Shown: positions 21,068 to 51,327 of the stretch, in pieces
Numbering within the stretch: the first letter of the stretch is position 1
Layout: the number at the start of each line of letters is the position of its first letter
Origin: Corallium rubrum
Lineage: Eukaryota; Cnidaria; Anthozoa; Scleralcyonacea; Coralliidae
Length of the DNA: 64,000 nucleotides
Direction: 5' to 3'
NCBI GenBank assembly: GCA_964035015.1
Contig: CAXIUP010000166.1
Span: 32,501 to 96,500 of the forward strand
Notes under the pieces: generated by a model
Seen by the model: the letters and a program-made list of their open reading frames with translations, nothing else
What the model was told of the DNA's origin: nothing
The model's database searches: none
Program-made: the position numbers and the translations under genes

Positions 21068-22538
21068 ATAATAATAATTAATGTGATTAAAGAAAAACAA
21101 TCTGTATATATTTAGATAGGTATATCTAAGTAGTTATAGTAGCGTGTATTTATATGTAAATAGTTGTAACTTTCTTTATTTTTATGGTACTGTATTTAGT
21201 TGAACAAACGGCCTATTGGAAATCAGATGCGTAAGAGCTCTGAAGAGTTACCGTTTTTAAATAAGATTAAAGGCAACTCAACGTTTACTTAAGAGCAGAA
21301 AACATTTTAGCGCATAAAAATGAGCTGTATATGTTTAACTTTAATAACCGTTGTGAGTTCTTTGTTTTACTCGTTTGTAGACTAGATGCTTTATTATTAA
21401 CATTCAGTTGACAATATTAACAGGACTTATCTTCTTTTATATCTTAAATTATTTATGACTTTGGCATAAACACTTCGTAATAAACAGGTAAATAGCATTG
21501 TTTTTGAAAGGCGTTTTTCACTTATTGAAGATAGGCTCTTAACAAAAACTTTTCCGTTCTCGTTGTTTTGTTAGTTTCGTTCTAATTTTTTTCTTTTGTT
21601 TTCTTAAACTATTCTTTTATTGTCTAGGATACCGTGAGCAAGATTAGCCTTCAACATGTTTAATTTAAATGTTTTAAAACTACATTTTAATTCGTTTCGA
21701 TCGCTATTTTCCAGGCCTAAATCTAGTGCGCGGTCAAGCAAGATCCCGGCTATTACTCACTAATTTCGTTGTTTGAAGCAACAAGTTAATGCATCAATTG
21801 CGTATTCGAAGTAGCCCATTTCTGATACTACATTTGCTTAGTCTTGTGGCCGGAAATACACAGGAACTAGAAGTTTGGCAGTTTACCTATTGCCACGCCT
21901 TGTAGGCTACGTATAGCATTGAGTTGAACCATTTTGTAGAACTGAAGACAGGTCATGCCATAAATGCTGAAAAGGAGCAGCCCAGGTGTATATACTCCTT
22001 TGTGGCACTCCGCTGACTACCTTTTGAATATAACTTACTTAAAGTTTTGGCTTAAATGAATAATTATAGCAATCAAAGCCGAACGAACAAACAGACGGAA
22101 AAAAACTCAACCCATTTCGTTGTTGTACCATGCAGAATTGAACTGTGTCCTGTACCTATAATTCACAGCTCAAGATATATCCGTTTCAACTGACGTGAAA
22201 GGATTTTTGTTACTTTTGCATTGTGTATTAACAGTTTATGAATCAATATGCCAATACAAATTAACATGAAAAAGCATTGCCGCGTTTGTATAACCCTGAT
22301 TGGGAGACTTTCACAATAGTGAGTGCGATCGATCTGGGATCGACCTAAAGTGTGAACGCTTAATTTGTCAAAGCAAACCTGGATCAATCTGAGATCAATG
22401 TACGTTATACAGCGGAAAATGGTTGTAAAAAATGGTTATGGTTATACACATGCATTGCAACTTCGAAAGTTTTTGTTAGCCCTTTATGTTTGTTTTTTTC
22501 TATGCTGTTTATCCTGTTGTTTTTGGGTTTTTTTACAG
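21068..22538. other. Presumed intron, nothing recognised
   Basis: AT-rich non-coding DNA leading to the acceptor at 22538. Short frames have no recognisable content. Confidence 0.45.
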
Positions 22539-22912
22539 AGAAACGATCGTCATTCAATGTGACCACAAAAGAAGAAGAGTCCATTACGTTTAGAAAACAG
22601 GCATCTTCCAGTTTAGAAAAAAATGTACCTGTGGATGATAAGACCCCTCTTACTCCAAGAGAGATAGCACGCTTATCTCAATTCATTTCCCTAAATTGGG
22701 ATCAGCTAGCTGGCTTGCTAAACATTGAAGATCATGAAAGAGAAAATATTCGCGTCAATGTATATCATTATCCATCACAAACCAGTAAAGCAGAGAAGGT
22801 GCTGAAATTATATTACGAAAGAGAGTTTAGCAGAAACAATCTTGGAGAATTTCTCAATGAACTCAATCTTAATGACGCCATGAAAAGATTACTTAGCGGG
22901 GAACTTAGGTAG
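22539..22912 (+). CDS. Terminal exon with Death-like domain
   Basis: A pyrimidine-rich stretch ending TTTTTTTACAG gives an acceptor at 22538. The exon reads on to a TAG at 22910-22912. After a charged linker (EKRSSFNVTTKEEES) the last ~85 residues look like a Death-superfamily fold: LTPREIARLSQFI, NWDQLAGLLNIEDHE, IRVNVYHYPSQTSKAEKVL and LGEFLNELNL. The helices, the W-x-x-LA-x-x-L core and the closing L-x-x-x-L-x-x-LNL match Death/DED-type adaptors that act by homotypic contacts in signalling or cell death. The exon begins after codon base 1, compatible with the polyQ exon at 12300. The gene cannot be completed here. Confidence 0.65.
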
Positions 22913-29030: not shown

Positions 29031-29510
29031 GGACAAGTACCACGTGAATATCTCGACCAATGAAATGGCTTATTTTCTCATCGTTTGATCGGCTGAAAAT
29101 TTTGCATTGGACTTCGAATACCGAATATTAGGCTATTGTCATTCACTTTTTTCTTTAAAAATGCAGCGATATCGTTTGATATATTGTTGGACTATCCATA
29201 TCTGCAGGATTTTGCAAGGTAAATGTATTTTTCTACTTTATTTTGATGGTTTATGTAGGTCGTGTCGCGCTAAGCGAAGACCCCACCTCCGGTTTTTCAA
29301 CAATCTTCAAAACAAAAAATCTCGAATTCCCATGGTTCGAATTCTCTAATTTTTGCGTAATAAGTTGAAGAAATGTCTAATCTTGGATGCCATGGAGGCG
29401 ATCCCCAGCGATCCCCTCGCCGTTTTCGAGATATTCGCCGTTGAACCGACCATGGTAGTTCGGCTTTCGCTAAGATGGCGCTTAATGAATTTAAGAGAGC
29501 CTTTCGCCAC

Positions 29511-29538
29511 CAGGCGGTGTGCGCACTGCGATCGCAAA
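29511..29538 (+). repeat. Left terminal inverted repeat of the 13.2 kb transposon
   Basis: 28 bases identical to the reverse complement of 42648-42675. It contains two palindromes, GTGCGCAC-like TGTGCGCAC and GCGATCGC, which could be protein binding sites. Preceded directly by the target duplication. Confidence 0.96.
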
Positions 29539-29644
29539 ATAATGCCATTTGCAACAAGTCTCGCTTGAGCACACGTCTACTCTCTCGCGGTGTTTATATA
29601 GTATAATATTATTCAAATTTGGCATTTTGGCTCGACCCACTGGC

Positions 29645-32600
29645 ATGGGAATCAAAACTTTGCTTCCATTTTTGAGAGATGTGACTTCAAAGAAACATCT
29701 GAAAGATTTTATAGGACAAACAGTTGCTGTTGACGCGTTTTGCTGGATACACAAGGCGCTTTCAGTGAGCTATGGATAGCACGGTGATGATAGAAGGTAA
29801 ATGTCATTTTCACCCCAGTATAAGAATTTTGCTCTACACTACAGTTTCTTGAAACGAAGAATAATCTTTGGGTTTCATTTTTGCTAGAACTGTTGATATT
29901 TGCTCAAATTATTTGGAGATACTCTGGGAAAATGATGTCAAACCATTTGTTGTATTCGACGGCCTGTTGTTGCCTGCTAAAGAAAAGGAACGAAACGATC
30001 GAAAAAGGTAATGATTCACTTCGAAACTTAAACTTCAAAAGCTCTAGCGTATTGTTTGACTTTGAACAGATATTATTTCTTTTGTTTTAAGTGAGTGATC
30101 TATTTGAAGATTTCTCCATGTCTGTATTGGACTGGTGTCACTCATGGTGTCAGATTATCGGTACTATTTTGGCACTAAAGTTTATTCAATGTTAGTTTCA
30201 CTTTCTTTTGAAGGACAAGGGAAGAATGCAGAGCAAAGGCACTCGAACTGCAGACTGAAGGACATGTTAGGGAATCGTGGAAGATGTTGGCACGGGCAGC
30301 AGATATTAAATACAAGCATATAAAATATTTCATATGCATAAGTTGTTTTATGGAGCCATTATTGTGATGGTTCTGATGTGCTGATCATAATGTCATCTTT
30401 AGCCCTGTTCTTATTTAATGCTTTCTAAAACCTGTAGGTTTGCCTTGAAAAGAAAGTAAAATATATTGTAGCCGTATATGAAGCAGATTCACAGATTGCT
30501 TTTTTGTTGAAACATGGACATGCTGACTTTGCTATATCAGAAGACTCTGATTTGCTGGCATATGGTTGTAAGAAAGTATGTGAAATAATCTTTCTTTTTT
30601 GAGCATACATGTAATTTATTATTCAAGGCTGATGTGTAGTGTACCATTTTAGTTTGTGCCAATTCCTATAGCCCTATTCACATGACACCAACTAACAAAA
30701 GGCAAACCGAGGATTAAAGTAGCCTTGGTTAGATTAAATGGAACAAAACAAACCCAGGTCTATCAACTGAAGCCACCACCTAAACCACCTCAAGGAGATA
30801 TCCTCACCGCAAGGATATTTTGGCACTTCAATTTGCCCTTTCTTCATGTCCACCTCAAGGTGGGCTCTCTTTGGGTGTAAGGGTAATTGTGGCAAAAGTA
30901 TTGTGTGAACATTGACCTTGGGTGAATATAGGTTAGCTGTCATGATCTTGTCAACTGCAAATATACCGGTATGCAGAGGTAACCAAGGCTCAGTCTGTCC
31001 CAGTTCTGCACTTTAGTAATTTTGCAGTATGAACAAAATGTATTAAATTTAACTTGAATAGAGCATGCAAATGCGATAAATCTGATCATGTTCAATTTAA
31101 ATAGTGACATTTCCTCTCATAACATGCTTGAAAACACAATATGTCACACTTATATTTGTCCCCACTGCACTCATTTGATTTATATTAAATAACTTTTTTT
31201 CTATGATATATCAGGTCTTTTACAAACTGCACCTTGATGGCAATGAGGAAGAAATAATACTCGATAATGTTCTGAAGGCACTGGAATTATCTAAGGACAA
31301 GTTGCTGAGTTTGTGTAATGGCTGGTTGTGACTACCTTCCAAATGTGAGGGGAATTGGTATCAATAAATCAAAGCAGATTATAGATACAAGTGATGATTT
31401 CATCTCAGTTGTGGAGAAAATGACCATGGCACCTCCTGACTACAGACACAAGTTTTTTGAAGCAAAAATTTTATTTCTGCATCAAACAGTTATAGATCCG
31501 ACTAGTAGAAAGTCGGTTCCCTTATCTCAATGGGAGGACAAAAGAGCGCAAGAAAAACACCAGATACAATGTGGAGAGTATCCTTTAAAATTAATGATCT
31601 TAGTCATTGATTTGTAAAATTTGACCAATCCCATAATCTGATATATCATAGTAGTTATGTAACATATTCCGTAATACAGCAGTTTGCAAAGATTCTGACA
31701 CTCAAAATATGTTAATTTATAGATATATGAAGATGCATTGTGTGATAGCCTTGAACATAAAATCTATTAATAATTTTATTATAGAAAAATATGCAGTTTG
31801 GGAAAGTTTTCATTCTCTGATATGTCTGAGTGGATACAAATGTACAACAATCACTAAATTGCATAAATTCAAAATTCTTTTAGAGATATCCCACAATGCA
31901 CTTCATATATGTATATATTTGTTGTTTGTCAGAATTTTTGCAAACTGCTGTATATAACATTTAACAGTACTGGTAAGAAATCCCTAAAAATTTAATACGA
32001 TACCTTAACATTTCCTAGTCAGATAACAGCAGAGTACAGTTGTGCCTTGTCAAATGGAAATGTTGATCCAGCCACTCCTGGTGTAATAAATGCTATCTTT
32101 CCAGCAGAATCACAGGTAAGAAAGCAACTTTAAGTTTTTGTCTATACTCGCAATTGCTATTAAAAGTACTTTATTACACTTAATTTTCACATTCCTTAAA
32201 TTTTGTGATTTGGAGATGGTCATATTTGCGACACTTTAGTTTTGTGACTTTGTTAAAACATGTAGAAACACTAGCCGAGTCACTTCATTTTGCAATCTCT
32301 TTGATAAATTTTGCTCATGAATGAACTTTTACTTTCTGTGTGTGTGCAACAAAAGCTATCTGTTTACATGCAGCAATGGGTTGTTGTTTTTTCTTTGGGA
32401 AAATTTGTTGCAAAAATTGCAAAAGTTAAGGTGTTGCAAAAACCAAGTGCAAGTTAGTTAGTTAAATAAAATTAAAATAATAGTTTAATTTTTTTTAATT
32501 TGTCATCTTATACAAAATGTTTATTAAATGTAGGGAGATGAACAGGACAGACTGCATATAAACATAACAAGTTGTGAAGAGGAAAGTTTCAATTGGAAAA

Positions 32601-32664
32601 TACCTTGTTTTTCCGTTATGTCTGTATCGCTGCGCAAGGTCGGATTTGACAACAATCAAGGGAT
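29645..32664 (+). pseudogene. EXO1/XPG-family nuclease part of transposon gene A
   Basis: The exon chain follows GT-AG sites. Exon 1 is 29645-29796 (MGIKTLLPFLRDVTS, then IGQTVAVDAFCWIHKAL, the XPG-N motif). Exon 2 is 29888-30007 (DVKPFVVFDGLLLPAKEKE). Exon 3 runs from 30214 to about 30310-30345. Exon 4 is 30438-30575 ([13 protein letters not shown] and [11 protein letters not shown], the XPG-I acidic residues). Exon 5 is 31215-31577 (MAGCDYLPNVRGIGINKSK, the helix-two-turn-helix region). Exon 6 is 32019-32115; exon 7 starts at 32534. Order and wording match exonuclease 1 (FEN1/XPG superfamily, structure-specific 5' nucleases). Lesions: TAG at 29777-29779, one extra base at 31317, and no clean donor after exon 3. 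In exon 6 LSNGNVDPAT matches the end of the EXO1 core. It runs into the HIRAN part in frame. Confidence 0.85.
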
Positions 32665-33238
32665 GTAATGTGATGGAGTGATGTCAGCAGATAAACATGT
32701 TAATACAGGTTTTTACACTTGTACATCATTTTGTGAAATATTCGTTGACGGCAAAGCATTCACAGTGTTGTGGAAGTTTGAAGAAACTACCTCATCAGAT
32801 TTAGAAATAACAGTGCCTGTAGAGGTAGAACATGAACAAGAAGCTGATGACAATCCTCACACACTGCCGTTCAAGGTGATGGGTAAATGCTGCTCAGCTG
32901 CAAGACAAAAAGCCCTGGAGAAATCATATGAAATGTTATATGATTTCAACAGGCCAGTATTTGTTAAACTTTCTCCAGAACCGGACAACACAAATGACCC
33001 TGATGCCATAGCTGTTCAAATCAATTATGACGAAGACAAACCGTATCATACTGTTGGTTACATTGCCAGGGAATTAACGAAATACTTACACCCTATACTT
33101 AACGAACTGGAAGTGTCAGTTAACAATATTAGGTTTTGTACAACTTTCATGCGTATTGGATTTTACCTAGCCATTGATATCACAAAAAATTGTCTCTGGG
33201 ATAAGCAAGTTATTGCATCTAGCAAAAAAGTTCGGTAA
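32534..33238 (+). pseudogene. HIRAN domain, C-terminal part of transposon gene A
   Basis: The last exon begins at 32534, in phase with the nuclease exons, and after a TAA at 32666-32668 the same frame stays open to 33238. Residues from LPFKVMGKCCSAARQKALEK on match a HIRAN domain: FVKLSPEPDNTNDPDAIAVQ, then HTVGYIARELTKYLHPIL. HIRAN domains (as in HLTF/Rad5) bind DNA 3' ends and are also found in mobile elements. Here one is joined to an EXO1-like nuclease, so a role in handling DNA ends during transposition is a fair inference. The upstream part (CTSFCEIFVDGKAFTVLWKF) is not recognised. The TAA could be a lesion or the true end of the nuclease with a separate HIRAN ORF from the ATG at 32681. 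Confidence 0.75.
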
Positions 33239-36064
33239 TGGCTATTTTTGATATTTACATAATTCCTGAACATACAGAGTACTGTAATTGTTAATTATTA
33301 CTGGAGTGGTGGAGGCAGTGCAACTGGTGCCTTGTGAAACTGTGCCAGAGCTGTCAATTGGCCTCTCAGCGGAAGTGAAGCTCTGTTGGCCACAAAAACA
33401 CCAGGGTCCCCTCTCCTTGAAATTTTAACTTTGTCAAGTCTTTCTACAACTCCAGGCCCAGATGGTTTATTAAAGGAGGGAAGTTGAAATTCTGTATATC
33501 TTTGTTTTGCACCAGTCCAATAGAAGGGTAGATCCGGGTCAATGCGTTTCTTGAATTCATTGAGTATCTTGGGGCATTCATTGTAGAACTGCTTGAGATC
33601 AAATACAGGACCAAATATTTCATGAAGGAGATATATTAATCCTTCTACATCAGTTGAAGATGATCTTGGATGCTCAGGGGGAAGTCCTCTATCTACGTAC
33701 TCTTTCTGACGGATCAGACGGCTCTCTACATTGGCCACCAGGCCAACCACAGTTTCTCTTGACAATCCACAGATCCCTTTGATAGGTACGGGTCCTTAAA
33801 AACCATGAAAGTCTTTAATTTTGCTTTGTGTAAAATTCTTTGTGTAAAAGTACTCAAAAGTCCTGAAATTTTGTTAAGATCTAGGCAGGTCCATTAAAAG
33901 TTTTTAAATTTTATTTGTAAAGTAGTTAGTCAAGCTGCTGTTGTAAGATCAACAATACTCTAATTCATTTGGCTGGTGCAGCGTGTTACATACAATAGGA
34001 GGAAGATCCGTAGATTAGGTCCTTAAAATTGCACAATTATACCCTCAAAAATCCTAAAAAAGTCCTAAAAATTCGGTCTGGAATTGGAATACGAACCCCG
34101 AGGGCAGATAAATTCAAACACATATATTATAACAGTGGGGGTAGACAAAGGTGACAAAGGCAATCACATACATAAATAGTCTTTAAAGTACAAGTTATTT
34201 TGAAGGTAACCTTAGAAAATTTTTGGACAGTAACATTTTGGAAAATGGCACTTTTCACATAAATTTTGAGGGGACAAATAACCATCTTACTCCCCCCATT
34301 TGTTCTGATTATGGTTGATCAGGCTGATGGTTGCCAAGGCAAACAACTCAAAGCAGTTTCAGCTTACCTGTTTACATCTATTGTAGAGTAATCTTTGATA
34401 TTCCTGTGCTATGGCATCCAATCATCCAACAGCCAGTTCTTCATGTCCTGAAGAAAGGATACCCGTGTCTCGTCAGAAAGACCTCTTCCATCCACTGCCC
34501 GATGCCAGTTCCGCAATACAGTCAGTATCCCACTTTCACTTAGGTGTCCATTCCTTTCCATAAAAGAAATCACTCCCACTGAGATTATTCTTTCACAATC
34601 TGGCACCGACTGTTTGTTCTTTCCAGTTAGAGCCTCGTAGGTTAGGCCAGTGGAGGGGTCATGTAGTGCATCTCGCATGAATCTCAGATCTACTCCTGGT
34701 ATGTTTCCCTCTCGAAGGCTAACGATTATTCTTTTGAGAAGATGGTTGTGGTCCTCTCTCTGGTGAACAAATTCTCTAGTCTGATGATCAATCTCAGGTT
34801 GATAGAGGAAATCATAAAAGTTGGCAGGATCAACCCCTAGATTTGAAAGACGTCTTATTTCAAACCGGTACAAATATATTGCCATAATGGACTTCAGCAG
34901 CTCTGTAGTTGTTTCTTCTCTTCCTGTGAAACAAATAAAATACGAAATGATAAGCATGAGAGCATATATGTGTAATTCAGAAAGAAAAGTGTGTATTCTT
35001 TCTTACAGTATTTCAACGTTCGTACACATCTTCAATTTTAACATCCAGGACTTCCCAAGAGTATTCTTGGGCTTTTCCCAGGAGTTTTCCAGGATGTGAT
35101 ATTCATTGGAACATTGTTAGCGTTGGTTTTTGCATGAAAATTTCTGTGTGGTTTATTGACAAAGTGTCAATGTTCACAGTAGAGTTAGTTGAAAATACCG
35201 ATATATTTTCTACATGTATGTAAAATAACTGAAACAGTTTTCCAGGACTTTAAGGAGTTTTAAGGATGAAAAAAATATTCCAGAAATTCCAAGAAGCATA
35301 CAGACCTTGCTATTTTGTATGGCACAATAAGTAGACCAGTTTTAATATAATTTATGTCATTAGTCTAGTCTAAGAGTTTTTATGACTATTTTGTGGCATG
35401 TAGAATTTAAGAAATGATTAGTTTCTATACTTGCCTTCAATCCAGTGGCGAGGGTTGTGAACAAATGGAAAGAGTTTCCTTCGTAGCAGCAAAAGAGCAT
35501 CATGCAAAGATACTGCCTGGTCTCTGCCATGTTTCATGAAATCACAAAGCCACAGAACATCTGCTATTGGTACTGCTGGATGCTGCTCCATTGGAACCCC
35601 TAAAAGAGGACAAATAAGGAAAATGCTTAGTTAAGGGAGCCTAAGATATAATAAATATATAATAGAGTAATTGGAATACGACTTTGGTGATTTTTGAGAA
35701 TAAAGGGTAATGACACAATGTATGAGTTTATCCTGTCATTGCATTGCATCATTGCACTTACGATCAGCCCATGACGAAAATAGGATAAATGAAAGGAACA
35801 TACCTTGTGCATTCAATTTAAAATACTTATTGACATCAGCAGCTCTCATACTCCTTGCAGAATTTCGAGCATTCTTTATTAGCTCAAGAACAGAAATTTG
35901 ACGAGCTTTCCCCATTGTTCTGAGAGAGTTAGACTCACCATCAGTGGTGAAACCTGTTAATCATTGAAAAACTATTGTCTAATGCAAATTCTGGATATCT
36001 GGATGCACATTTATGGTTATTTAGGTTCATTAAACAAGCTTGTAGAATAGATAAAATATTACCA

Positions 36065-37905
36065 GGGTTAAGTCACGTTGGCCTGAAAAACAGAGAAAAA
36101 TCTTCTCGACGTTTCGAGCGAAGGCCCTTCGTCAGGAGAAATTAGTAAACAATTCACATGTGGTCACGCGTATTTATAGCAGAGCTACAATGGGAATCAC
36201 GTGAACACATGTAAACCAATAAAAACAAAGTAAACAAATAAATTAATATGTAATTTTAGCCTGTGTGCAGGTGCTGACCCAATTTGTGGGTCAGCTACCT
36301 GCAAATAGGCAAAGAAACAGGTTATAAATTACTATTTAAATCATCAGAAAAAGGTTAAGGAAAAGGTGTGGAATATGGTGGTGGAGTGAGCTAAATGAAA
36401 GAGAATCGCTCATTGAGGCCGTGAGGGTGAATGGTACCAAGTTTGTAAATGAGACGCATTTCTTGTTTACGACGAGTATCGTTACAACCTGTAATGGGCT
36501 GAATGGCACAGATTTTCATGTTGGAAAAGGAGTGGTTGGCACTGTTGAAGTGCCTGGCAATAGGTTTGTTTTGCACATTGTTTTTGACATCACGAAGGTG
36601 TTCAACAAACCTGTCACCTAAACGTCTTCCAGTTTCTCCGATGTAAAGCATGGGACATTTACTGCAAGAGATACAGTAAATGAGGTTGGAGGAAGTGCAA
36701 GTGAAACTGTGGGTTATGTTGATCCTACATTTTGGAGCCGAAATTGAAATTGAGGACAGCAAGACTACCACGACAGCAAGAGCTGGTGCCAACATGTGAT
36801 ACCAAGGCTTGCTGCAGTGAGCTGTGAACAACGTTTTTCCGGATGTTTTTGCTATGCCGAAAAGATACTAGGGGTTTCTCAGAGAAAATGGAAGATGTTT
36901 CTGGGTCATTTTTAATGAGGTCGAAATTGCGGCTAATGATGTCCCTTACTTTGAAATTGAAGGGATGAAAAGTGAGAACAAGAGGTACTTTTTCATTAGA
37001 AATGGTAGCCAAAGGTTCGCTTAAGGTGTCTGAACGGGAAATGTTGGAGACCTTGTGTAAGGCAGTGTCTAAGAGGTGGGAAGGATAACCGCGATTAACA
37101 AAAAAGTTTCTCATTTCCAAACATTTGGCATTGAAATCGTCATCTTCACTGCAGAGGCGGCGAAGACGAAGAAATTGAGAGAAAGGAATGGAAGTTTTGG
37201 TGTGTTTAGGATGATGAGAGGAGAAGAGGAGGTAGCTATGAGAGTCAGTGGTCTTGTAAAAGACAGAAGTGCTCAGCTTATTACCATTAATGGAGACGAG
37301 AATATCTAAGAACGACACACTAGTCTCACTGATCTCCCATGTGAACTGGAGTGCTGGGTGGAAGTCATTAACATAGTTAATGAAGCAAACCAGCAATCAT
37401 CAATGAACCGACCATAGTAGTCAGGTAGGAAACCAGTGTATTGTTCAAAGATTTGTTTTTCCACATAACCAACAAATAAGTTGGCATAGTTAGGGCCCAT
37501 TTTGGTACCCATGGCTACACCACTGACTTGTTGGTAATGCTCACCATCAAATGAAAAATTGTTGAGGGTGAGCACCAACTTGGCCAGGCGTAACAAAGTA
37601 GTGGTCGATGGCTCCTGAGTTGTGCGTTGATCAAAGAAATATTTAAGTGCTTGAAGACCATCGTGATGCGGGATGACAGTGTAGAGTGATTTGACATCCA
37701 TGGTGAAGATGAAATGATGTGAACCCTGAAAACTAATGTGGTCACAAATTTTCAGAGCATGTTTGGTGTCCTTGATGTAAGAAGGTAAATTCTTAACCAA
37801 GGGCGCCATGATGTGGTCAAGGTAGGATGAAATGGCTTGGGTAGGGCAACCACAAGCAGACACTATAAGTCTACCTGGGTTGTTGGGTTTGTGAAATAGA
37901 ATAGA
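36065..37905 (-). pseudogene. Nested Penelope-like element with GIY-YIG endonuclease, 5' truncated
   Basis: Frames on the minus strand begin inside the reverse transcriptase (FHKPNNPGR, SACGCPTQAISSYLDH), then FTMDVKSLYTVIPH (motif A), QVSGVAMGTKMGPNYANLF (motif B), RFIDDCW (motif C), then a frame change and SFLDILVSINGNKLSTSVFY (thumb). The C-terminus carries NLIYCISCSKCPMLYIGETG with R/E/H residues after it, the GIY-YIG endonuclease, closing at 36391. The 5' part is missing, as is usual after incomplete reverse transcription. It lies in an intron of transposon gene B (between 38852 and 35953), antisense to gene A and sense to gene B. It is of a different family from the copies at 3.6-8.1 kb. 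Confidence 0.88.
36099..36144 (-). ncRNA. Hammerhead ribozyme in the nested Penelope-like element
   Basis: On the minus strand the core is complete: CTGACGA, then after one unpaired A a stem GGGC/GCTC with loop CTTC, then GAAAC and GTC (a loopless 2-bp stem III with cleavage triplet GTC). Stem I is TTTCTC with GAGAAG (six pairs). All invariant core bases are present. Minimal hammerheads of exactly this kind are known from Penelope-like elements and are thought to cut as dimers. It lies 3' of the GIY-YIG ORF. Confidence 0.8.
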
Positions 37906-37911
37906 ACTAGA

Positions 37912-38032
37912 TTGTTACTGTACTCAGAGTTTCAGGCTTTATGCGATCATCAGACAACTCAAAATGTTTATGCGATCAACAAGTCGTCTGATGATCACAT
38001 AAAACGTGAAACTCTGAGTAATAACCTAGTTG
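37912..38032. repeat. Inverted repeat with hammerhead-like cores on both strands
   Basis: TACTCAGAGTTTCA near 37920 mirrors TGAAACTCTGAGTA near 38018, with GATCATCAGAC / GTCTGATGATC inside. Each strand reads CTGATGA, then a short A-rich hairpin, then GAAAC-TCTGAGTA, i.e. hammerhead-like order with a GTA triplet. Stem I does not pair well on either strand, so activity is doubtful. It borders the truncated 5' end of the Penelope-like element. Confidence 0.5.
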
Positions 38033-38216
38033 TATTCTGGTCTATTCTGCAAACTTATTTATCTTGCTCTATTTATGATGAGCACTCTTGGAACAGTTAT
38101 TTGTATTTGGGGTCATCAAAATGTTACAAGCCCCTGCCTTTCACTTTCACATCTCCCATTCCATTCACAGTTGGTGAACATGATTGAGAAATGATAAATA
38201 AATTTGGATTCTTCAG

Positions 38217-38523
38217 GTACTCTAGGGTGCCTAATAAACGTCCCCCTGCTTATTAATTTTCAATTTTTTTCCCACCCCCACCCCGACCTTATTAGGACCC
38301 CCCCCTGTTTATTAGATTTCTCATGTTCTGTATTTGTTCGGTAAATAATTTTTGGTGTAATGATTAACATGAAGTACTAGGAATATATACTTGATACATT
38401 AGTCTTATGTCATTTTCCAAACTCCCCCGTTTATTAAGACCCCCGCTTATTGACATTTTCAAGTTTTTCTGATCCCCCTGCTTAAGAAAAATCCCTCTCT
38501 GTTTTTTTGTGTACCCGAGAGTA
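38217..38523. mobile_element. MITE of ~307 bases nested in the large transposon
   Basis: Ends TACTCTAGGGTGC (38219) and GTACCCGAGAGTA (to about 38523) are imperfect inverted repeats of 13 bases. The inside has repeated CCCCCTGCTTATTA / GTTTATTAAGACCCCC phrases. Non-coding. Confidence 0.6.
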
Positions 38524-38704
38524 ATCTGCTACCCATTAGGGATGCCCTTCATTTACTGAACCACTAGGAAGAACATCTTTGGGTGATGGAGTATCCAGTG
38601 TTAATTAAGCAATAATTGTCTTATTCAAGAGGACCATTACATTTGCATTAAAGCTGCTAACATTTTCCACATAATATTTTTCCTTTTCCTTCCATTGAAT
38701 AATT

Positions 38705-38825
38705 AGCCACTTTGGAAAAGAGTAAGAGACTGGGAACAAAGTGCCAATAATTGAATAGATTGTCACCTGTAACGATCCCATGATGCATCACTATCTCCAG
38801 TCTCTTACTCTTTTCAAAAGTGGCT
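38705..38825. mobile_element. 121-bp MITE nested in the large transposon
   Basis: AGCCACTTTGGAAAAGAGTA at 38705 mirrors TACTCTTTTCAAAAGTGGCT ending at 38825; the inverted ends are 29 bases with one mismatch. It lies next to exon 4 of gene B, in the intron. Confidence 0.85.
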
Positions 38826-41800
38826 TATAATAAGGTTTTTAGTGTACTCACCAACAGGAACCATATCAATAGCTTTCATTTCATTTTCCACCTCTTCTTC
38901 CAAATCTCTCAGTTTTCCATCAGTTATGCTATGATAAGGGAGAAATCTCACTGGTATTGCATATGGTTTGCAATTCCTCCTTTCATCAGAAATCATTAAT
39001 GCAAGTAGATGACTTGCAGCAGTTCGTCTCTTGGCATACAAATCTTTGAGATAGCAGCAAACTTCCTTCCTAAAATCAGTTAAAATTTTCTTTACTGTTG
39101 TGTCATCACCAAGGATGACACATGTTATGATGAATGACAATGTCTTCTGAATCTTCTTAAGCATTTTCTGCAGTTCCTCAAAGCCAATGTGCTCCCAAGA
39201 CAATTCCATCAGTGAATTATCAGACAAATTGGTTCTATGCAGTGCATTTTCATATGCACTTCTTGCTTCTTTCTCACCGGTAGCCAGAAACTCACTGTCT
39301 TTATCTAAAGAGGACAACAGACTAGAACAGAGTCTCACAATCCTCTTTCATCTTATCTCTGCTTGCAATTTTTAATTCTTTAACAAATATACACCTGTTT
39401 GTGTATTCAGCAAATAGGGCTTGTAAGCTTTTATCACCAAGGTCTTCGTCACCAGCCCATTTCCCAACCATACTCTCTCTCAGACCTTTTCTGATGTCAC
39501 AGGCATCAGCCTTCACCCACCACCTTCCTCCTGGATTACTTTTTTTGGCATTTTTTAAGGCTTCGACCTGCAATTAGTTTAAAAAAAAATTATAAATTTT
39601 ATTAAAATGCTGATCAATTCTGATTAAAATATTCTTAACATAAATGCTTGTGTTTCTGTGATGTCAGTGGGTGCTTCCAGAAATAATCTACACCCCACAC
39701 GTTCCAATTTCACCAGAAATTACAATATGTCCTGAAAGATTTGACCCCCTTCCCCTCAGACATCTAAATTCCCTTCTGTGGTTAGAGTGTGGATTATTTC
39801 TGGAAACACCAAATGAAATGTTTAACCTCACATTCAAAAAACTTTTAAGTCTTCCATCCATTAGTATTTTTATAGAGAAGTGACCCTAATGATCACCAAG
39901 ACATTATTATAGAAAAAGGTGTGAACTACAGTTTTGTTTTCATTAATGATGCTTTACTGCATTGTTAATTTCAGCTTTTATGCAACAAACTCAGAAAAGA
40001 AGATTGCATGATTTTATCCCAACCGACCTACAACATCATCAGCTAAGTATTTTAAGCAAGAAGTACATGTATGACATTTTGTATATAACAGACAGCATTG
40101 TTTTCCCACTTACTTGTATATTTACACTCCTTGTAAATCCTGACGAGACAATATTCTTCTGTATCTGTCTAACTCCCAAGCAGGCAACATTTGTTTTACT
40201 CTGTTAAGAAAATTATCAATCACAGAGTGTCATGACAGACATTTTTGTGTGTTTTAATAAACCCACTATCCCACTTGGTTAACCCATTAATGCACAATGC
40301 AGCCCCTTTATCATTTTACTCTGTCTAATGCCAGACGATTTTACTTGTCAAAGGGACACTGCTTGGGCATTAATTTTGATTTTAACTTGTAGTATTCTGG
40401 TATTAAATGACTATGTGGTACAGTTTTGGTTGTTTTTTAACAAATTTATATGCGGCATTTCAGTTTTTTCCCTATTTTTATGTGCGTTTTTCAGTATTCT
40501 TACCCCCATGAATTGTTTTTATTGGACATACCTTCATGGGATCATATGATCCTGTAATACGCTTCCTGGGAGGACACACATTTGGCGTGATATGGTGATG
40601 ATGCTCCATCTGCCCAGGTGAGACATTACCATCAATGATTTTCTCAGCCTCCTTGGATGTCAAGTGTGTCCACAAGAGAGATGCACTTTTTTTTGGCTCT
40701 TGCTGCTTTGACTTATCAGTAACATCCACATCAAATAGGTTTAACCCACTACTTTCCAATGCAATTTGTATCAAGGAGTTATCTCCTTCATTGTTTGAAA
40801 GTTCATTCCCACTCTGATTGTATAAAAGCGATTCCATCATGGTTAGATCAAAGCTTTCACAAGAAACATCTTGCATTCCACTTTCCAGCATAGCACATTC
40901 AATTAAGTTTGTGCTTGAAGGGGCTTGACCTTGAGTAATTGAAGTATTCAATATACTGCTTTCATCAAACACAGGAATAGGTTCACAGGGCTGTGTTGTG
41001 GGTTCCGTTTCAGCCTGTATTTCATACTGCCAGGCTGGACCTCTAAATAAGCTCAACCATTTATGTCCAAAATGGGAAAACATGGTCTCAATCCAAGTAG
41101 TGTAATGTTTTTCTGCATGTACACTTTGAATAGCATTGCTGGCAAAGAAACGAATGTTATAATCAAGAATTCCAAATGGCATCTTATTTAATGGCATTCT
41201 TGGTTGTGAATCGTGGTTGCTTTTGAAAAAGCATTTGGACAATGAATACAATAAATTAAATTTGTTTGCACTTTTTAAAGTGTACATAGCATTTAAACTA
41301 ATGTCCAGAAAGTCAGATTTCACAAAAGAGTAAAAGTCATTCCCCCAGGTATCAATTATAAAAAGTTTAAACAGATGATTCACCAGTTGTTTTTTCAATC
41401 TTGTAGACATTGAGTACTTGAATGCTTTGATGAGATTTTGTACAGAGTCCCCAATACTAGTTGTTGTTTGTGTGAATGGAGAGCATTTGAAAATTGGTGA
41501 GAGAGATTCCAAGTGGGATAGGTTATGTGCTTTCGAGCTTGGTGTGCTTTCATTATTGTTACTTGAACTATCCTCTGTGAATACATAGTCTATCTTTAAA
41601 TCCTCTTCGGCCTGAGAGAGAGACGAATACTGCTTACTTAGGTGTTTTGTAACTTTTGATCTACAAGCTGAACCTGAAAAGGTATAAAATTTTTATAAGA
41701 AAATTACTCATCTTAGTAATGGGCAGGGGTGGATAACACAACAAAAATAACATAGGTCTGAGAAAATTTAAGGGTACCAATTTTTAATACATGGAATATT

Positions 41801-42647
41801 TTAGGTTGAAAAATTCACCAGCAAAATACAAAAATATAGGAGGGGTATGTGAATTATAAAACAAAATTAAGGATTTCTGTGAAACCTATATCTGAAATAA
41901 ACATACCTGTTCGATTAGAATTGCAACTAGTGTTAATAGCTCCCGCACAACTTTCCCAAAACTTCTGGTCTTTAGTGACTGGCCATTTGTCATTCCAAGC
42001 TTGTGGCCAGTAGAGACAAATATATTGAACGAGGGCCTTTATTTCCTCATTTGTCCAGCTCGATCTGTTTGCCGGTCGTCCATTGGCTTTATCAACAGAT
42101 ATTTTACAAAAAAGTTTTTTTCTCGCCCCATCTGTCGATGTTGAACGCGATTTTGGTTTCGGTTTTCCCGGTGTATCGCCTTCAGGAACTATCGGACGTT
42201 TCAGCGTTCCTTGGAGAGCTGCCACGTCGTCAGCCTAAAATTGACAATTTTCATAGTCAGAAAAAGTAGCAAAATCGAGGGGCGCCAAGGGGCGCTTTAT
42301 AATCTTTGTAAAAAACAACCTTTCCTATATAAATACAATATTTTATTATGGCGATTGGACTTAAAGAAAAGAAAATATCGTCATTACTTTGGAGGAAGTA
42401 TTGCAATGTCTCTTCGTGGCAAATTATACCTATCTCACTAATCCGATCTTTAAAGCTTTAAAGTTCGGAAATCGGCGAAAGCTTTGCGGTAATTCAAGAC
42501 TACATGATCATAACTTTATGCATCAGGGCAAGAATTAAAATAAAATGCATGAATAAATAAATACACAACAAGAGCATAAACTTACCATTGTACGAAGACA
42601 AAATCGCCATTCAACTCAGATTCTGCATTAATTAGGATCCACAATGC

Positions 42648-42675
42648 TTTGCGATCGCAGTGCGCACACCGCCTG
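42648..42675 (-). repeat. Right terminal inverted repeat of the 13.2 kb transposon
   Basis: Exact inverted partner of 29511-29538, followed directly by the second TTTCGCCAC at 42676. The start codon of the minus-strand gene lies only 60 bases inside. Confidence 0.96.
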
Positions 42676-42684
42676 TTTCGCCAC

Positions 42685-44785: not shown

Positions 44786-45189
44786 TGAATGCCCATCCGC
44801 CATAACGCCATTCTCACGAATATACGCCAAATAAAGCACAATCTGATCATATTAATTGTCCATGATAACCACGAATTGTTCTCGTATTTTGCTGACCATC
44901 AGATTTATCAATTCTGGATCAACTGTGACGAGTTTTCAAACGTTTTTGCGCATCTAGTCCACCGGGCAGAGTTCATTCCTCGTCTGAGGTCAGAGGTAGA
45001 GTGAGACGCCCACGCAAAAATGAAAGCCAGCTGACCATGATGCTTTGCGCGGCTTGTCCAACCTCCTTTGACCAGTGCCATTGGCGAGGTATTTGAATTT
45101 CGGTGTATTATGCAATACTACGGCGCCCCACCAGTCAGCGGTAATATGTTGTTTTTAACGTTTATGTGGTGTTTTTATTATCAGGTAAA

Positions 45190-46975
45190 ATATCAGTGCG
45201 ACCTTCGGACACCGCTCGAAGACAAGATTCGCGAGATGGTCAGGTCTGATGCTTTGAAGACCCCAATCAGTACGAGGATTTTACCTGCTATCCAAATGAA
45301 TGCAAATAAAGTTCATGCAGAAGTGGCGAAGGTACTTCAGAGCAACGAGAATATCCCTTTGGACCAATCCTTTGTCATTGATGTGGTAGCCGTCAAACAA
45401 CCCATAGGGTCCGGTAAATCTCTTAAAGTATTAGACTATTCTAAGGACACGGTAGTTAAAAAATCAATAATTACAGTTAAGAATAAGGATAATTTATGTT
45501 GTGGGAGGGATTTAGCTGTGGGGCAGGCGTTAGCGGATAATCACCCGAATTAAAACAAATAAAATTAGGTAGAACAATTCAGAAAAAGTTGGCACTTGAT
45601 TTATACAAAAAAACCAATGTCTTGCCTGGTCCTTGTGGCTTTCGGGAAATGTCGAAGTTCCAAGGCGTCTTGACGGGATACCAGATTATTGTTATTGATT
45701 TTGATGCTAGAAATACTAGCATTTATGAAGGCCCTAGGCGTGATAAGAAAATCATTTTGTACAAACATGATGATCACTATAATGTTATAAATCCTAAGAA
45801 ATTCCCAGCTTTCCATGGTCAACGTTTTTATTGTGAAAAATGCAAGTCTTTTTATTCGAATTACCGAACACATCCGTGTATTGATCCATGTCGTACATGC
45901 TTACGCAAAGAATGTCTATGGGTTCCGTCAGAAAAACGTACTTGTACCGAATATTTTAAAATTTGTCGTTCGACCAAATGTTTTGAGGATGACAAAAAGA
46001 TTCGTAAGTCCAAGGGCGTTGATCTTCCGTCAAAATGCGACATTTCGTTTAAATGTCAAACATGTTCAGTTACTGTTGATAGAAAACGACAAGACGATCA
46101 TCGTTTTGGAGAACATAAATGTGATATTTGTAAAATGTTTGTGTTGGCTGACCATTTGTGTTACATGCAGTCTGAACCGCGAAAAACGCCTAACGACAAA
46201 CTAATATTTTACGACTTTGAAACAGACTTTTCGACTGGTGAACATATTGTGAATTTTGCTGTGGCTCAGTACGGTATAAACGGGACTGAATTTATGTTTA
46301 AGGGGTACGATGCGTTGAATAAATTTTGTGAGTTTTTATTTTCGATGGAACACAAAGGTTTTCAGCAATTGCACATAACGCTAAAGGTTTTGACGCGGTT
46401 CTTATTCAGAGATGGTTAATTGAAAATAGACCCACTGCCGACATACACGTAATTCATTCAGGACAAAAGATTATGCAACTTTTTTTAAAAGATTATCAGA
46501 TTCGACTTATTGATTATTTAAACTGGCAACAAATGCCTCTTTCAAAATTTCCTAAGACGTTTGGTTTAGATTTATCCGTTTAGATTTATCCATGTATTCC
46601 AAAGGTGACTTTCCATTTAAATTTAATACTGTTGAAAACCAAGATTATATAGGGCCAATGCCAGATATTGAAGATTATAGCCCGGACACAAAATCAGAAG
46701 AGATTCGAAATGACCTATTACCTGGCATAATAATTTATGTCAAAGTAATTATATTTTTGTAAAAATTTACAAGTACTGTTTTCAAGATGTTACTATTTAC
46801 GTTTATGTTGCATGGGGTTTAGAGACTTATTTTTGAGTGAAACAGGAGCTGATCCTTTTTGTTACTGTACAATTGCAGCTTCTGTTATGGCTGTTTATCG
46901 TTCAAAATATTTAAAGAAAGATACTACAGGTATTGTGCCAAAGAACATGTACTATGAAGGAAATAAGCCTTACGT
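45190..46975 (+). pseudogene. Polinton/Maverick protein-primed DNA polymerase B relic
   Basis: The frames 45190-45553, 45589-46419 and pieces to 46970 correspond to the N-terminal half of Polinton family-B polymerase. It replicates the element from a terminal protein primer. Visible: an N-terminal domain with CCGRDLAVGQALAD, then zinc-binding Cys/His clusters between about 45810 and 46170, then IFYDFET, the exonuclease I motif. A later piece has CMGFRDLF and DPFCYCTIAASVM. Stops, frameshifts and an internal loss near 46590 are present, and the copy ends where inverted capsid sequence begins (about 46985), so the polymerase active-site motifs are missing. Dead relic of a virus-like element. 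Confidence 0.82.
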
Positions 46976-46984
46976 AATCGTAAT

Positions 46985-48225
46985 CGTAAATCACATTCCT
47001 CTCTGAGTCGATTTGAATTATGTTTTCAAATTCTCCATAACGGACAAGGCTAACAGCTTCTGCTGGCGCGGCATAGAACTGAATGTCAACTGACAGATTT
47101 CCTTTTTGGACGAGGTTAAAATGAGGCGATGATTCACACATGTCAGGTGTTAAATCGAATGCATACACTGCGTAGCCTTTGGCAAATTCTTCTCGAGATA
47201 TACCATTACCGGTATTGTAATACATTTTCCCTGTACCAGAAAACTGTGCACAAAATGCTTCAACAAATCTGGCGTTTGCATGGCTTCTCCATTTACTGTT
47301 TTGCCAAGAGAAGACATGTTAAAATGTTGAAGGTTAAATGGGTTTTTCTTAAAATCACCATTACAAGCTGCACTTTCGACTAAACCAAAGACACAATCTT
47401 GGTACAAAACCATTGAATACTTTGTCTTTCTGCAAGGATGGATTTCCTGCTGGAATAGTAAAACTCTTGCACTCAATACGTCGGATGGGGTAAATTGCTG
47501 GACCCTTCTTTAGCGCAACTTCGTGAGCTAATGAAACACTTGGGTTGACTTTCACCTTGCGAAATTTTAGGTAAGCATCAACCAGCTTCACTCTGAAATC
47601 AATATCGTCCACGGACGACATCAGACAGAACTCATTGTTAGTACGATTCATGACAACTTTCAGATCGACATAGCTTAGTAAGAGACGCTCAGAGAAAAAT
47701 ACATCACGTAATATAGGACCGGCCATCTCGACAATTCCACTTGTCTTGCTAAACTCGTATCTTGCGTTAAGTCCTTGATTGGCTGCAGCGCCTGCTAGGG
47801 TTGGATCTGCTATGTCCATTTCCCCAGCTGTATCTTTGTAAAAGAGAGATGCTGTAAGTTGCGATTGCTTTGCTGATGGTCCATAGTTCAAAAGTGTCTC
47901 GAGATAAGAACGGTAAGCATAAGTTCCAGTAGCTTGAGTGACTTGCTTTTCTTTCAAAAATGCATCCACTTGTTTGAACAAGCTATGCATAAAATTGTTG
48001 ACAGGTCCAACTTTCATACTGATCTGCATCTAGATCTGCGCCATCTGCTTTTGTCGCTTTAGCTCTAACCACCAATTCACCAAAATTGTTTTAGACAAAT
48101 CGAAATAATCTTCGGTGCCGGGAGAGAGGATCGACGTGATGGGACCATTATCTGATACACTTGAAACAGGTTGATGATCTATCCAATGCCCTTTCTCCAG
48201 GCTAACTTGTGTTGGAGGTACTGAA
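46985..48225 (-). pseudogene. Polinton major capsid protein relic
   Basis: Three or four overlapping minus-strand frames (from about 48225 to 46990) line up with the double jelly-roll major capsid protein of Polintons, the family often annotated in animals as F54H12.2-like. Marks: VSDNGPITSI near the N-terminus, VGPVNNFMHSLF, YLETLLNYGPSAKQSQL, FYKDTAGEMD, and at the C-terminus GYAVYAFDLTPDMCE. At least three frameshifts break the gene. It lies antisense to the polymerase piece, which it touches at about 46985. Confidence 0.82.
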
Positions 48226-48269
48226 AATAGATCAAGTTTACTTTATGTGCACCACGTCGATTTTGAATG

Positions 48270-48736
48270 TACGAAATCTATAACTATCCAAATATGTCTT
48301 CTACGTGAGCTGTTTTGCGTTTCTTGACTTGTCTGCTTCTGACAGTAGGAGATGAAGTCTTTCTTTTTTTACCTCTTTTCTTAACACTTAAACGCTTTCC
48401 ATGGTTTGACCAAAAGTCTGAAGCTTATTAACAGCTTTTTTCTTTACAACATTTGCTGCTTAGTTCAATCGCGATTTTGCTGACTCTTTCACGTTTTTAC
48501 CAGTAAGGACATCTCCTAACAAATTTGCACCTGTATTCCACACGATATTTCCCAAGGTCTGCACCAGTTTTGACGAGAGGCATAACTGCCCTGGCTACAC
48601 TGCGAAAGAGTCGTCCTAAACCATACCCCATTTGTCCATGTCCCATCTGCCATGGACCACCAATAAAAACAGGCATCCCACTTCGATGTTGTTGTTGATC
48701 CAAATAATAACGTGCGTACCGATTAGTACGATTCAT
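48270..48736 (-). pseudogene. Polinton small basic virion protein (adenovirus pVI/pX-like) relic
   Basis: The frame starting at 48736 has a Gly-rich stretch (GHGQMGYGLGRLFRSVARAV then MPLVKTGA), typical of the small membrane-active or core protein encoded between the capsid genes of Polintons. A frameshift follows. Basic pieces such as VKKRGKKRKTSSP near 48360 make up a likely tail. Placement between the major and minor capsid genes supports the call. Confidence 0.6.
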
Positions 48737-48738
48737 TT

Positions 48739-49296
48739 TTACATAAAATAGGATGAGTTTTGCAGTCTAAAGTGAAGTGTCGTCAACACCTTACCACGTT
48801 CAAATGGCATAGCGAGACCAGTGTCATCTCTTAAAAGTATCACAATGTCTTCAAATGTTTTTGTTTGAACTGGTACGTACTGTATATTATTGCAGGTTCT
48901 TGTAATCACTTCCCTCAATTTTCCTTCGACAGGTACTGATCTCAATAGTTTTGCATTGGTATCTCCAACTACTTGTGGTTGCACGATATCACAGTACACA
49001 TAAATGGAATTCATGGCACCATTAATGTCACTGACAGAAGGACTCGCCATCGTCTTGACAATCTTCACTTCCTTTCCACCATTTTTTAAGCGAACTGTCA
49101 CTTTTTCAGTTCGAATATCAAACGTCATTGAACTATTCCCTTTTGTGTCTTTTGACAAGGCTTTGTTTACAGATTTAATAAAATCTGTCATGGAATTATA
49201 AAACCCATAGTCCACAAAAGTAACCATAAAAATAACACCATCATCACTGTAGTCATTGCCAGAAATTTGGGACAAGATGGTGTCGCGCGTGCGCAT
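48739..49296 (-). CDS. Polinton minor capsid (penton) protein, open frame
   Basis: A 185-codon frame with FEDIVILLRDDTGLAMPFE and GKVLTTLHFRLQNSSYF near the end, a typical close of the single jelly-roll penton protein of Polintons. The middle part has IYVYCDIVQPQVVGDTNAKL. The stop at 48739 is followed within three bases by the start of the next capsid-region gene, as in compact Polinton gene clusters. This is the only Polinton ORF here without a visible break, though its neighbours are dead. Confidence 0.7.
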   Translation of the reverse strand: MRTRDTILSQISGNDYSDDGVIFMVTFVDYGFYNSMTDFIKSVNKALSKDTKGNSSMTFDIRTEKVTVRLKNGGKEVKIVKTMASPSVSDINGAMNSIYVYCDIVQPQVVGDTNAKLLRSVPVEGKLREVITRTCNNIQYVPVQTKTFEDIVILLRDDTGLAMPFERGKVLTTLHFRLQNSSYFM

Positions 49297-50255
49297 TAAT
49301 GACCATAATAATGGAGATTCTCAACAGTAAATAATAAGGAGAGCAGACAATAATTCAAATTTTGCTTAAACGCTGATAAATTTCTTCTTTCTCCAGATCC
49401 ATCTGACTTCAGCATGGACTAAGCAACAGTTGTAACTAAAAAACGTTTTCTTAGCTCGACGACAAAGTACTTCCCTAGCTCGTCTTATTTTTGCACTAAA
49501 AGCGCCACTATCCATAGTGTTAGCCATAGTAATCTTTGTAAACAGGTGCTAGAAATTGGCCAAATTAACCAACAACGTTATGGGCGATGCGAAGTCTCCA
49601 GATCCCAATGCATTCGACACGAGTCAGTCTACTTCCTGAGCACATAATGATCCTGATTTGTGCCTAGCATAGTACTTCCAAAAGCGTTTGAACTTGCTTG
49701 ATTTCACAGTTCTTATAGCCGTTTATAGGTTGTTTACATATACATACATGCACGATTTTGTCATATTCTAAAGAAGTCAATGACCTGTATAATGAGAATA
49801 CGCTAGCGTACAATAGAATCAAACGCATTAGAATACATAATTATCATTATTAGGCGACAGAGAGCAGCGGTTCAAATGACCAAAATTTCTGGTGATGTAC
49901 AAGTGGTTTTCACACGCTGGGGGTTACCACGTGTGGGGATAAGTCATCGAGTATAGACCGACTTCCCAGTTACCGTTAAGATCAACTGTCTGAGGTAGGT
50001 AATTTCACTCGATAACTGGTTGTAGTGTTATTGTGAAATGTAAAGAGAGATGCACTGCTAGGAAGCGTCAGGTAAAAATGTGTTCCGTTCATCATGATCC
50101 TACAAGGGATAATAAAAGAACACGACACATTCAAATGTTTAAAAACGATTTATTTGAGAAGCAGTAACCCATGAATTAAATTTGTTAGGATAACCTAGCC
50201 ACTTTACAAACTATTGTACATTTCTTCCTTTTCCTCGTTTCTTTAGAATCTTCTC
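49297..50255. other. Polinton-derived spacer; ATPase and protease not found
   Basis: Sequence between capsid and integrase pieces. A short minus frame from about 49528 (ANTMDSGAFSAKIRRAREVL) may be a small virion ORF. I find neither the packaging ATPase nor the maturation protease expected in a whole Polinton. Confidence 0.4.
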
Positions 50256-50259
50256 TATT

Positions 50260-51065
50260 TCATAAGTATCCTGCTATGTTTGATAACTTTCTGAAGTTCT
50301 TTCTCGTAGGATGTTCCTTTGAGTTCTTCTCCATCAAAATCTTTAATCTTGTAGACGGGTTCGTCGCGGTATTGTCTTGCTTATTGTGAATATCTCTTGA
50401 AAAATTAGGCAAATATCCCTTTTCAAATTTGCGTTTAATCTTACTAATTCTTACTTGATCACCTATCTTAAACTTGTAGTGTACAGATTGCAAGTCATCT
50501 ATGTCACTGTCGTACAATGTATGCCATACTTTATTTTCGATTGCATTATTTACAAGAGCAGGTTTTGTTTTTATACTGCGATGAACTGTATGATTATAAG
50601 CATAAACTAAGTCAGGCAACATGTCAATGTATCTCATGGTTTTCTTCGCCGTGAAGTAACGCCACATTTTGGTTTTAATGTACGAATTAATCGTTCAACG
50701 ATTGAAGCCTTTGTCTCGTTAAACGTATTATACAAATGAATCTCTTCATTGTTCATCAGCGTTTTAAAATGTTTGTTGAAGAACTCCGTTCCCCGCTCAG
50801 TTAAAATTTTCTCTGGCTTTCTCCCCGACGACAACATTACTTTAAAAGCGTCGACAAGGGCAAGACCTGTTTTGACCTGAGAGGAACCACCCATGCGTAC
50901 TTGGAAAGTACGTCGATACATACAAGCAAATAACGATATCCGTCGTTAAATTTTTGCATTGACTGCATGTCTGCTAAATCCATTTGCCATTGTTCATCAA
51001 TACCTCCAACTAAAACACGGTTTCTCTTAAAGTTGCGTCGAACCAGTTTGTGTAAGGTGTATGCA
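50260..51065 (-). pseudogene. Polinton retroviral-type integrase relic
   Basis: Minus-strand frames show an rve integrase core: EQWQMDLADMQ (first Asp), KTGLALVDAFKV, then ERGTEFFN where the family has an Asp before the xGTE motif (here Glu), and ETKASIVERLIRTLK (third acid). A frameshift near 50905 and another near 50650 divide it. The end at 50290-50500 has KFKIGDQVRISKIKRKFEKG, the chromo/SH3-like tail used to bind DNA. The start is lost at 51066, where a tRNA-like palindrome begins. Confidence 0.8.
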
Positions 51066-51068
51066 TCC

Positions 51069-51327
51069 TAATAATTGTTAGTTGTTTGCTGTACAAGCTG
51101 TGTTAGTAATACTCAGAAAAACTCTGAGCTCTGAGCGGGAATCGAACCCACAACCTTCTGAAACCTTAATTAACCTTGCTCCCGCTATCTGAGTTCTGGT
51201 GGCTCAATGGTTAGAGCGTCTGGTTAGTATTCAGAAGGTTGTGGGTTCGATTCCCGCTCAGAGCTCAGAGTTTTTCTGAGTATTACTAACTAACACAGCT
51301 TGTACAGCAAACAACTAACAATTATTA
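51069..51327. mobile_element. Palindromic tRNA-like foldback element, copy 2
   Basis: TAATAATTGTTAGTTG at 51069 mirrors CAACTAACAATTATTA ending at 51327; the arms are about 95-105 bases. The right half holds a complete tRNA-like cloverleaf (51193-51264) and the left half the inverted 3' part of one. Same plan and similar edges (TGTACAAGCTGT) as copy 1 at 11986-12252, but different anticodon and inner bases. A third fragment of the right half recurs at 51484-51540. It truncates the integrase relic. Confidence 0.82.
51193..51264 (+). tRNA. tRNA-like sequence (anticodon AGT, Thr-like), element-borne
   Basis: All four stems pair. Acceptor GTTCTGG/TCAGAGC (7 pairs with wobbles), T8 G9, D stem GCTC/GAGC (4), anticodon stem TCTGG/TCAGA (5 with one GT), loop TTAGTAT (T33, anticodon AGT), variable AGGTT, T stem GTGGG/CCCGC, loop TTCGATT. 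A box TGGCTCAATGG and B box GGTTCGATTCC are intact. It could be transcribed by RNA polymerase III, but it sits in a mobile palindrome, so I treat it as tRNA-derived. No CCA is encoded. Confidence 0.6.

Follow-up and report, generated by a model that had tools for sequence, protein, structure and literature searches.

Structure of the element and its two genes

Within the whole stretch of DNA analyzed here (64,000 nucleotides, the window), which covers 32501–96500 of contig C178 in the 474-Mb Corallium rubrum assembly (312 contigs), an element of 13,165 bp occupies positions 29511–42675. It is bounded by a left (29511–29538, forward strand; CAGGCGGTGTGCGCACTGCGATCGCAAA) and a right (42648–42675, reverse strand) terminal inverted repeat of 28 bp. 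In an inverted-repeat comparison the two arms, separated by 13,109 nt, matched at 28 of 28 positions, and the left one was also recognized in genome copies. Directly outside both arms the sequence reads TTTCGCCAC (29502–29510 and 42676–42684), a 9-bp target-site duplication that is present once at the empty sites we read. Perfect 28-bp inverted repeats 13.1 kb apart within a 9-bp direct repeat, as described in the original prediction, were thus confirmed. The element holds a nuclease gene (gene A, forward strand) and a transposase-like gene (gene B, reverse strand), which are convergent. The proposed distance of 59 bases between them agrees with the stop codons at 33238 and 33298; the splicing of both genes is predicted.

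The start ATG of gene A lies in predicted exon 1 (29645–29796), which together with predicted exon 2 (29888–30007, with the equivalent of catalytic D78) encodes the XPG_N domain. Exon 3 (30214–30325) is inferred to end where similarity ends, a point at which the window copy has no GT donor. The XPG_I domain is encoded by predicted exons 4 (30438–30575, with equivalents of E150, D152, D171, and D173) and 5 (31215–31577, with the D225 equivalent), followed by a predicted linker exon 6 with uncertain borders (32040–32115) and the predicted last exon, whose 5′ border is uncertain, with the HIRAN domain (32669–33238). All seven EXO1 catalytic acids are kept; residues are numbered as in EXO1. Pfam searches detected XPG_N, XPG_I, and HIRAN; HIRAN exceeded its cut-off as a single exon and narrowly missed it once the exons were assembled (23.9 vs. 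24.7 bits), so that the proposed XPG nuclease with a HIRAN fusion was recovered with this small reservation. The best named relatives of gene A are coral proteins, and many named matches are annotated as exonuclease 1. A Desmophyllum protein (P0010) has the same three domains, and a Stylophora protein (P0014) has XPG_I together with a Myb-type domain, the combination expected of a fused gene model of the A/B pair.

Gene B is read on the reverse strand from a candidate first coding exon with a Myb/SANT-like DNA-binding domain (41907–42234). It continues through predicted exons for the N-terminal half with an acidic linker (40532–41673), the KADACD motif with the first catalytic D candidate (38852–39567), the TTDGE motif with the second (35804–35953), an exon with a GC donor (35435–35599), and the helical insertion region (34368–34923). 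The predicted last exon covers the DDVE region, here TDVE, and its 5′ border is uncertain (33298–33794). No Pfam family exceeded the cut-off for gene B, and no relative was found in PDB by sequence. Relatives of gene B were found in Dendronephthya, Porites, Branchiostoma (two), and Glandiceps, with two more besides. Viral contigs yielded none, one scan being empty and another giving 54 pattern matches, none of them related.

In two AlphaFold models of gene B, the top structural match was the P-element transposase. These models are of low confidence (mean pLDDT 52, pTM 0.30–0.33, alignments of 7 sequences) and contain, compared with the P-element transposase, an additional helical stretch between strands one and two. 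With Foldseek alone, 310 matches were obtained at E ≤ 10, but none reached E ≤ 0.001, and the best 50 of the 310 do not include the P element. A gene B profile compared with eight P transposases of the same genome gave an alignment over the stretch around the second D that was not significant (E 0.073, probability 0.8%). Members of the P superfamily carry an N-terminal THAP domain. Here, no THAP match at E ≤ 1 was obtained for the window reading or for the protein P0001, and the only N-terminal signal was a weak, below-cut-off Myb/SANT-like match (PF13837, E 0.0071). Gene B was expected to encode a transposase-like protein starting with a SANT domain; we likewise read it as transposase-like, and the SANT-like match stays below its cut-off.

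Inactivation of the window copy and a nested insertion

In gene A of the window copy, a TAG interrupts the frame of exon 1, exon 3 lacks a recognizable splice donor, and exon 5 is frameshifted; in gene B, the frame is shifted within the KADACD exon and interrupted by a TAG in the exon at 34368–34923. As both genes are broken, this copy cannot itself be active, although any single lesion may be an assembly error. The surroundings of the gene B frameshift had one genome match at ≤3 mismatches, the window itself (a control pattern also gave one). At other loci the KADACD exon has open frames, which means that copies without the gene B frameshift exist. The transposon had been called complete, which is true of its ends and not of its genes.

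A predicted intron of gene B contains a Penelope-like fragment of 1,845 bp (36052–37896, reverse strand) with RVT_1 and a GIY-YIG match below the Pfam cut-off. It is flanked by a 9-bp duplication, TAGAATAGA (36043–36051, second copy 37897–37905), and the sister copy on C230 represents the empty site. The fragment is a later insertion into the element. Everything between the ends is therefore a single two-gene unit, as predicted, except for this nested fragment. The truncated C230 copy shares 96.0–98.1% identity with the window copy over aligned stretches, and the two occupy different insertion sites.

Elsewhere in the window, we noted a DDE transposase fragment at 376–804 (DDE_Tnp_4, E 1.6e-26), a Death-domain coding exon at 22364–22909 that likely belongs to a host gene, and a DEAD-box helicase exon at 51998–52528. 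Genes for tRNA-Ala(ggc) and tRNA-Thr(agt) were predicted at 12139–12212 and 51193–51266, respectively. By eye, some reading frames at 45041–50694 look capsid-like or polymerase-like, as in a Polinton/Maverick-type element, a resemblance that Pfam did not support.

Empty sites and other copies in the genome

For the empty-site search of the same genome, we joined the flanks around a single 9-mer into a 200-nt query with its junction at position 100. All 40 scored matches (of 384 candidates) span the junction at 92–99% identity, and in the three sites that were read it was exact. Matches are so numerous because the insertion target is another high-copy repeat. Insertion with a 9-bp duplication is proven by the empty site. 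The target repeat itself (29.0–29.5 kb and 42.7–44.3 kb of the window) is 95–98% identical to three other copies, identity with these extending for 1.6 kb or more to the right and for 0.3–0.5 kb to the left.

A pattern made of the outermost 24 bp of the ends was found, at ≤3 mismatches, at 63 forward and 63 reverse positions of the genome, while the reversed-pattern control gave none on either strand; the 126 matches against zero show that the terminal repeats, far from occurring only once, are not a product of chance. The sample used for target duplications comprised 44 end-paired copies, i.e., 42 and two further two-gene copies, picked from the end-pattern matches listed (about 100 of the 126) and hence not random. 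Among the 42, a perfect 9-bp duplication was present in 36, one with a single mismatch in two (L006, L015), and none in four (L009, L014, L020, L072); no perfect duplication of any other length from 3 to 14 bp was seen in these copies. In L014 and L020, the same 9 bases can be discerned by eye with a small length change. Over all 44 copies, there were 38 perfect duplications, two with one mismatch, and four copies without an ungapped 9-bp match, which agrees with the forecast of other copies bearing different 9-mers. Two copies on C56, both among the 38, have the same 9-mer and the same bases next to it, and probably go back to the duplication of a single locus. The count leaves out partnerless ends, namely those in L011 and L031 and those at C230, C149 (left end missing), C13, C203, C30, C1:72730346, C1:9622247, C39:2714795, and C8:52985520.

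Four two-gene elements have both ends together with 9-mers: the window copy, C1:22210450-22224934, and the two further copies C1:73977217-73996007 and C8:24728096-24742403, each of the latter with perfect 9-mers. Shorter copies include four of 3.1 kb (C22, C28, and two on C56), each with pieces of gene A, and a non-autonomous family of about 1.1 kb, which has about 30 terminal bases in common with the window element and in which 33 compared copies show pairwise identities of 97.2–99.7% (median 98.2%). The lineage has been recently mobile and the window element is a real, inactivated member of it.

C8:3347798-3361473 (13.7 kb) was rejected as an autonomous copy, being a copy of the ~1.1-kb family swollen by Penelope-like insertions; it still counts among the 42 for its duplication. 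Several Penelope-like reading frames lie inside it at C8:3350048-3359041 (L099 from 1849 to L100 1842), by eye with reverse transcriptase and GIY-YIG, two of them in tandem with 832-aa open frames. The outer ends of C1:79406117-79430533 share GGTAGGCCA and enclose two two-gene copies in inverted orientation; this pair is among the 42 counted, but was not taken as proof.

From 53 matches listed we built 27 gene B loci, and from 87 we obtained 37 HIRAN-region matches; these counts are lower bounds. At least 20 of the 27 gene B loci have a HIRAN-region match within 25 kb, and at all 20 the two are convergent, indicating that the gene pair is a stable unit. The remaining seven have no HIRAN match nearby, although two of them (C46, C1:76478689) adjoin XPG exons. 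The separate occurrence of the two genes, named beforehand as a possible refutation, was seen in part: some gene A-like pieces are without a detected gene B. XPG+HIRAN copies without gene B on C18 and C1 showed no clear inverted repeats at the ends examined. Near-identical (99%) pieces of this kind occur at L101 and L102 and, by score, also at C8:45367352 and C1:8103170. One XPG+HIRAN piece without gene B ends in CAGGGGGGG (reverse complement), its other end having no matching inverted repeat.

The resemblance of gene A to host EXO1 might suggest two host repair genes lying between chance inverted repeats. We regard the probability of this as vanishingly small, given the end matches and their empty control, the 9-bp duplications at unrelated sites, and the gene pair at 20 loci; a host-gene cluster with chance repeats is refuted by the empty-site test.

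Proposed mechanism

A DNA transposon with an XPG nuclease fused to HIRAN, a transposase-like gene, and a 9-bp duplication, as originally put forward, is borne out, and two of the checks suggested with it, for other copies with different 9-mers and for an empty site, were positive. We consider it very likely that the element is a single, inactivated representative of a lineage that comprises several families of two-gene DNA transposons and encodes a transposase and an EXO1-HIRAN nuclease. Such an element would work as a DDE cut-and-paste transposon with a helper nuclease. Judging by the models, gene B may encode a DDE-type transposase with an RNase H fold, whose layout resembles that of the P-element enzyme and includes a helical insertion domain and a DNA-binding end akin to Myb/SANT. 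Its protein would bind the CAGGCGGTGTGCGCA ends, excise the element, and insert it by a 9-bp staggered cut; the duplication, the ends, and the empty site are observed, and the role of the protein and its chemistry are presumed. The HIRAN domain of HLTF binds single-strand 3′ ends. Gene A, as a putative EXO1-type flap nuclease joined to HIRAN, might process flaps or ends from excision or from repair of the insertion gap. Shortened derivatives that share these ends, both the 3.1-kb copies retaining pieces of gene A and the ~1.1-kb non-autonomous family, moved as well. Taken by themselves, the roughly 30 shared terminal nucleotides suggest that gene A/B elements may mobilize the ~1.1-kb family. 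In the window copy, stops and frameshifts disabled both genes, and the Penelope-like fragment became nested in it. Since a single genome offers several two-gene copies along with shortened derivatives and an empty site, it becomes possible to test what a transposon-encoded flap nuclease does.

Classification and comparison with known systems

The nuclease of AcademX is of the XPG type. Target duplications are reported as 3 or 4 bp in AcademX and 9 or 10 bp in AcademH, a difference that Kojima suggested to be related to the helper enzyme, helicase vs. nuclease (PMC10045372); a 3-bp Academ duplication is given in another source (PMC5199201). The original prediction had given 8–9 bp for the XPG type and 3–4 bp for others, which inverts these values. 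The element carries an XPG-type nuclease gene, as AcademX does, with a duplication of 9 bp, as in AcademH; a scan of 10 of the region's 19 reading frames of ≥90 aa and of both assembled readings detected no helicase domain. It therefore combines an AcademX-type enzyme with the AcademH duplication length.

That it belongs to Academ, as an AcademX member with 9 bp instead of 3–4, has in our judgment an even chance. We take the NV in the name Academ-1_NV to stand for Nematostella. That element is on record (PMC9004415), curated bivalve Academ consensus elements, at a mean of 5,565 bp, are also long among DNA transposons, and a nuclease beside the transposase is what separates AcademX from helicase-bearing AcademH (PMC10045372). 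The reported 3–4 or 3 bp speak against this assignment, as 9 bp was found in 38 of 44 copies, and a literature search for Academ together with HIRAN brought up two papers, both unrelated to judge by their titles. The literature covered on Academ, XPG, and HIRAN, which leaves aside most subscription papers and Repbase, contained no such element in the parts seen.

Possible, if somewhat doubtful, is that the element stands for a superfamily of its own, as yet undescribed, or for a deep branch related to P, with a P-like fold, its own family, an EXO1-HIRAN partner, and 9-bp duplications. The structural match in both gene B models points this way, as do the negative Pfam and PDB searches. P-like elements are also abundant in this genome, where the P transposase model PF21787 finds 129 places; by the listed coordinates, none is at the 27 gene B loci. 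P elements duplicate 8 bp (PMC7776569), which differs from the 9 bp seen here. On the other hand, the models are of low confidence, and Academ transposases might fold alike. In its broadest form, held just as tentatively, this reading implies an undescribed animal-wide superfamily with a P-fold transposase, an element-encoded EXO1-HIRAN flap nuclease, and 9-bp duplications; the type of accessory enzyme would then not determine how long the duplication is, contrary to the proposal made for Academ.

An XPG nuclease with 9 bp either contradicts the published link between enzyme and duplication length (PMC10045372) or marks a separate superfamily. Likewise, a nuclease lineage making 9 bp in nearly every tested copy would mean that the link drawn by Kojima is wrong or that nuclease-carrying transposons arose more than once.

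By these features the element is not AcademX (duplication length), not AcademH (no helicase in the parts scanned), and not P (sequence, 9 vs. 8 bp). Like AcademX it is a long DNA transposon in which a nuclease gene accompanies a gene for a putative DDE-type transposase; it differs in duplication length and in the fusion of the nuclease to HIRAN. AcademH resembles it in the reported 9–10 bp, but has a helicase where this element has an XPG-HIRAN nuclease. Likeness to the P element/THAP9 lies in the best structural match (low-confidence models), the putative DDE layout with a predicted helical insertion before E, and internally deleted copies, whereas the P-family sequence match is lacking, the end is Myb/SANT-like instead of THAP, the duplication is 9 and not 8 bp, and the nuclease gene and the helical stretch modeled between strands one and two are additional. 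Host EXO1 has the same XPG_N and XPG_I domains with all seven catalytic acids; gene A, in contrast, carries HIRAN, lies inside a transposon, and is multicopy.
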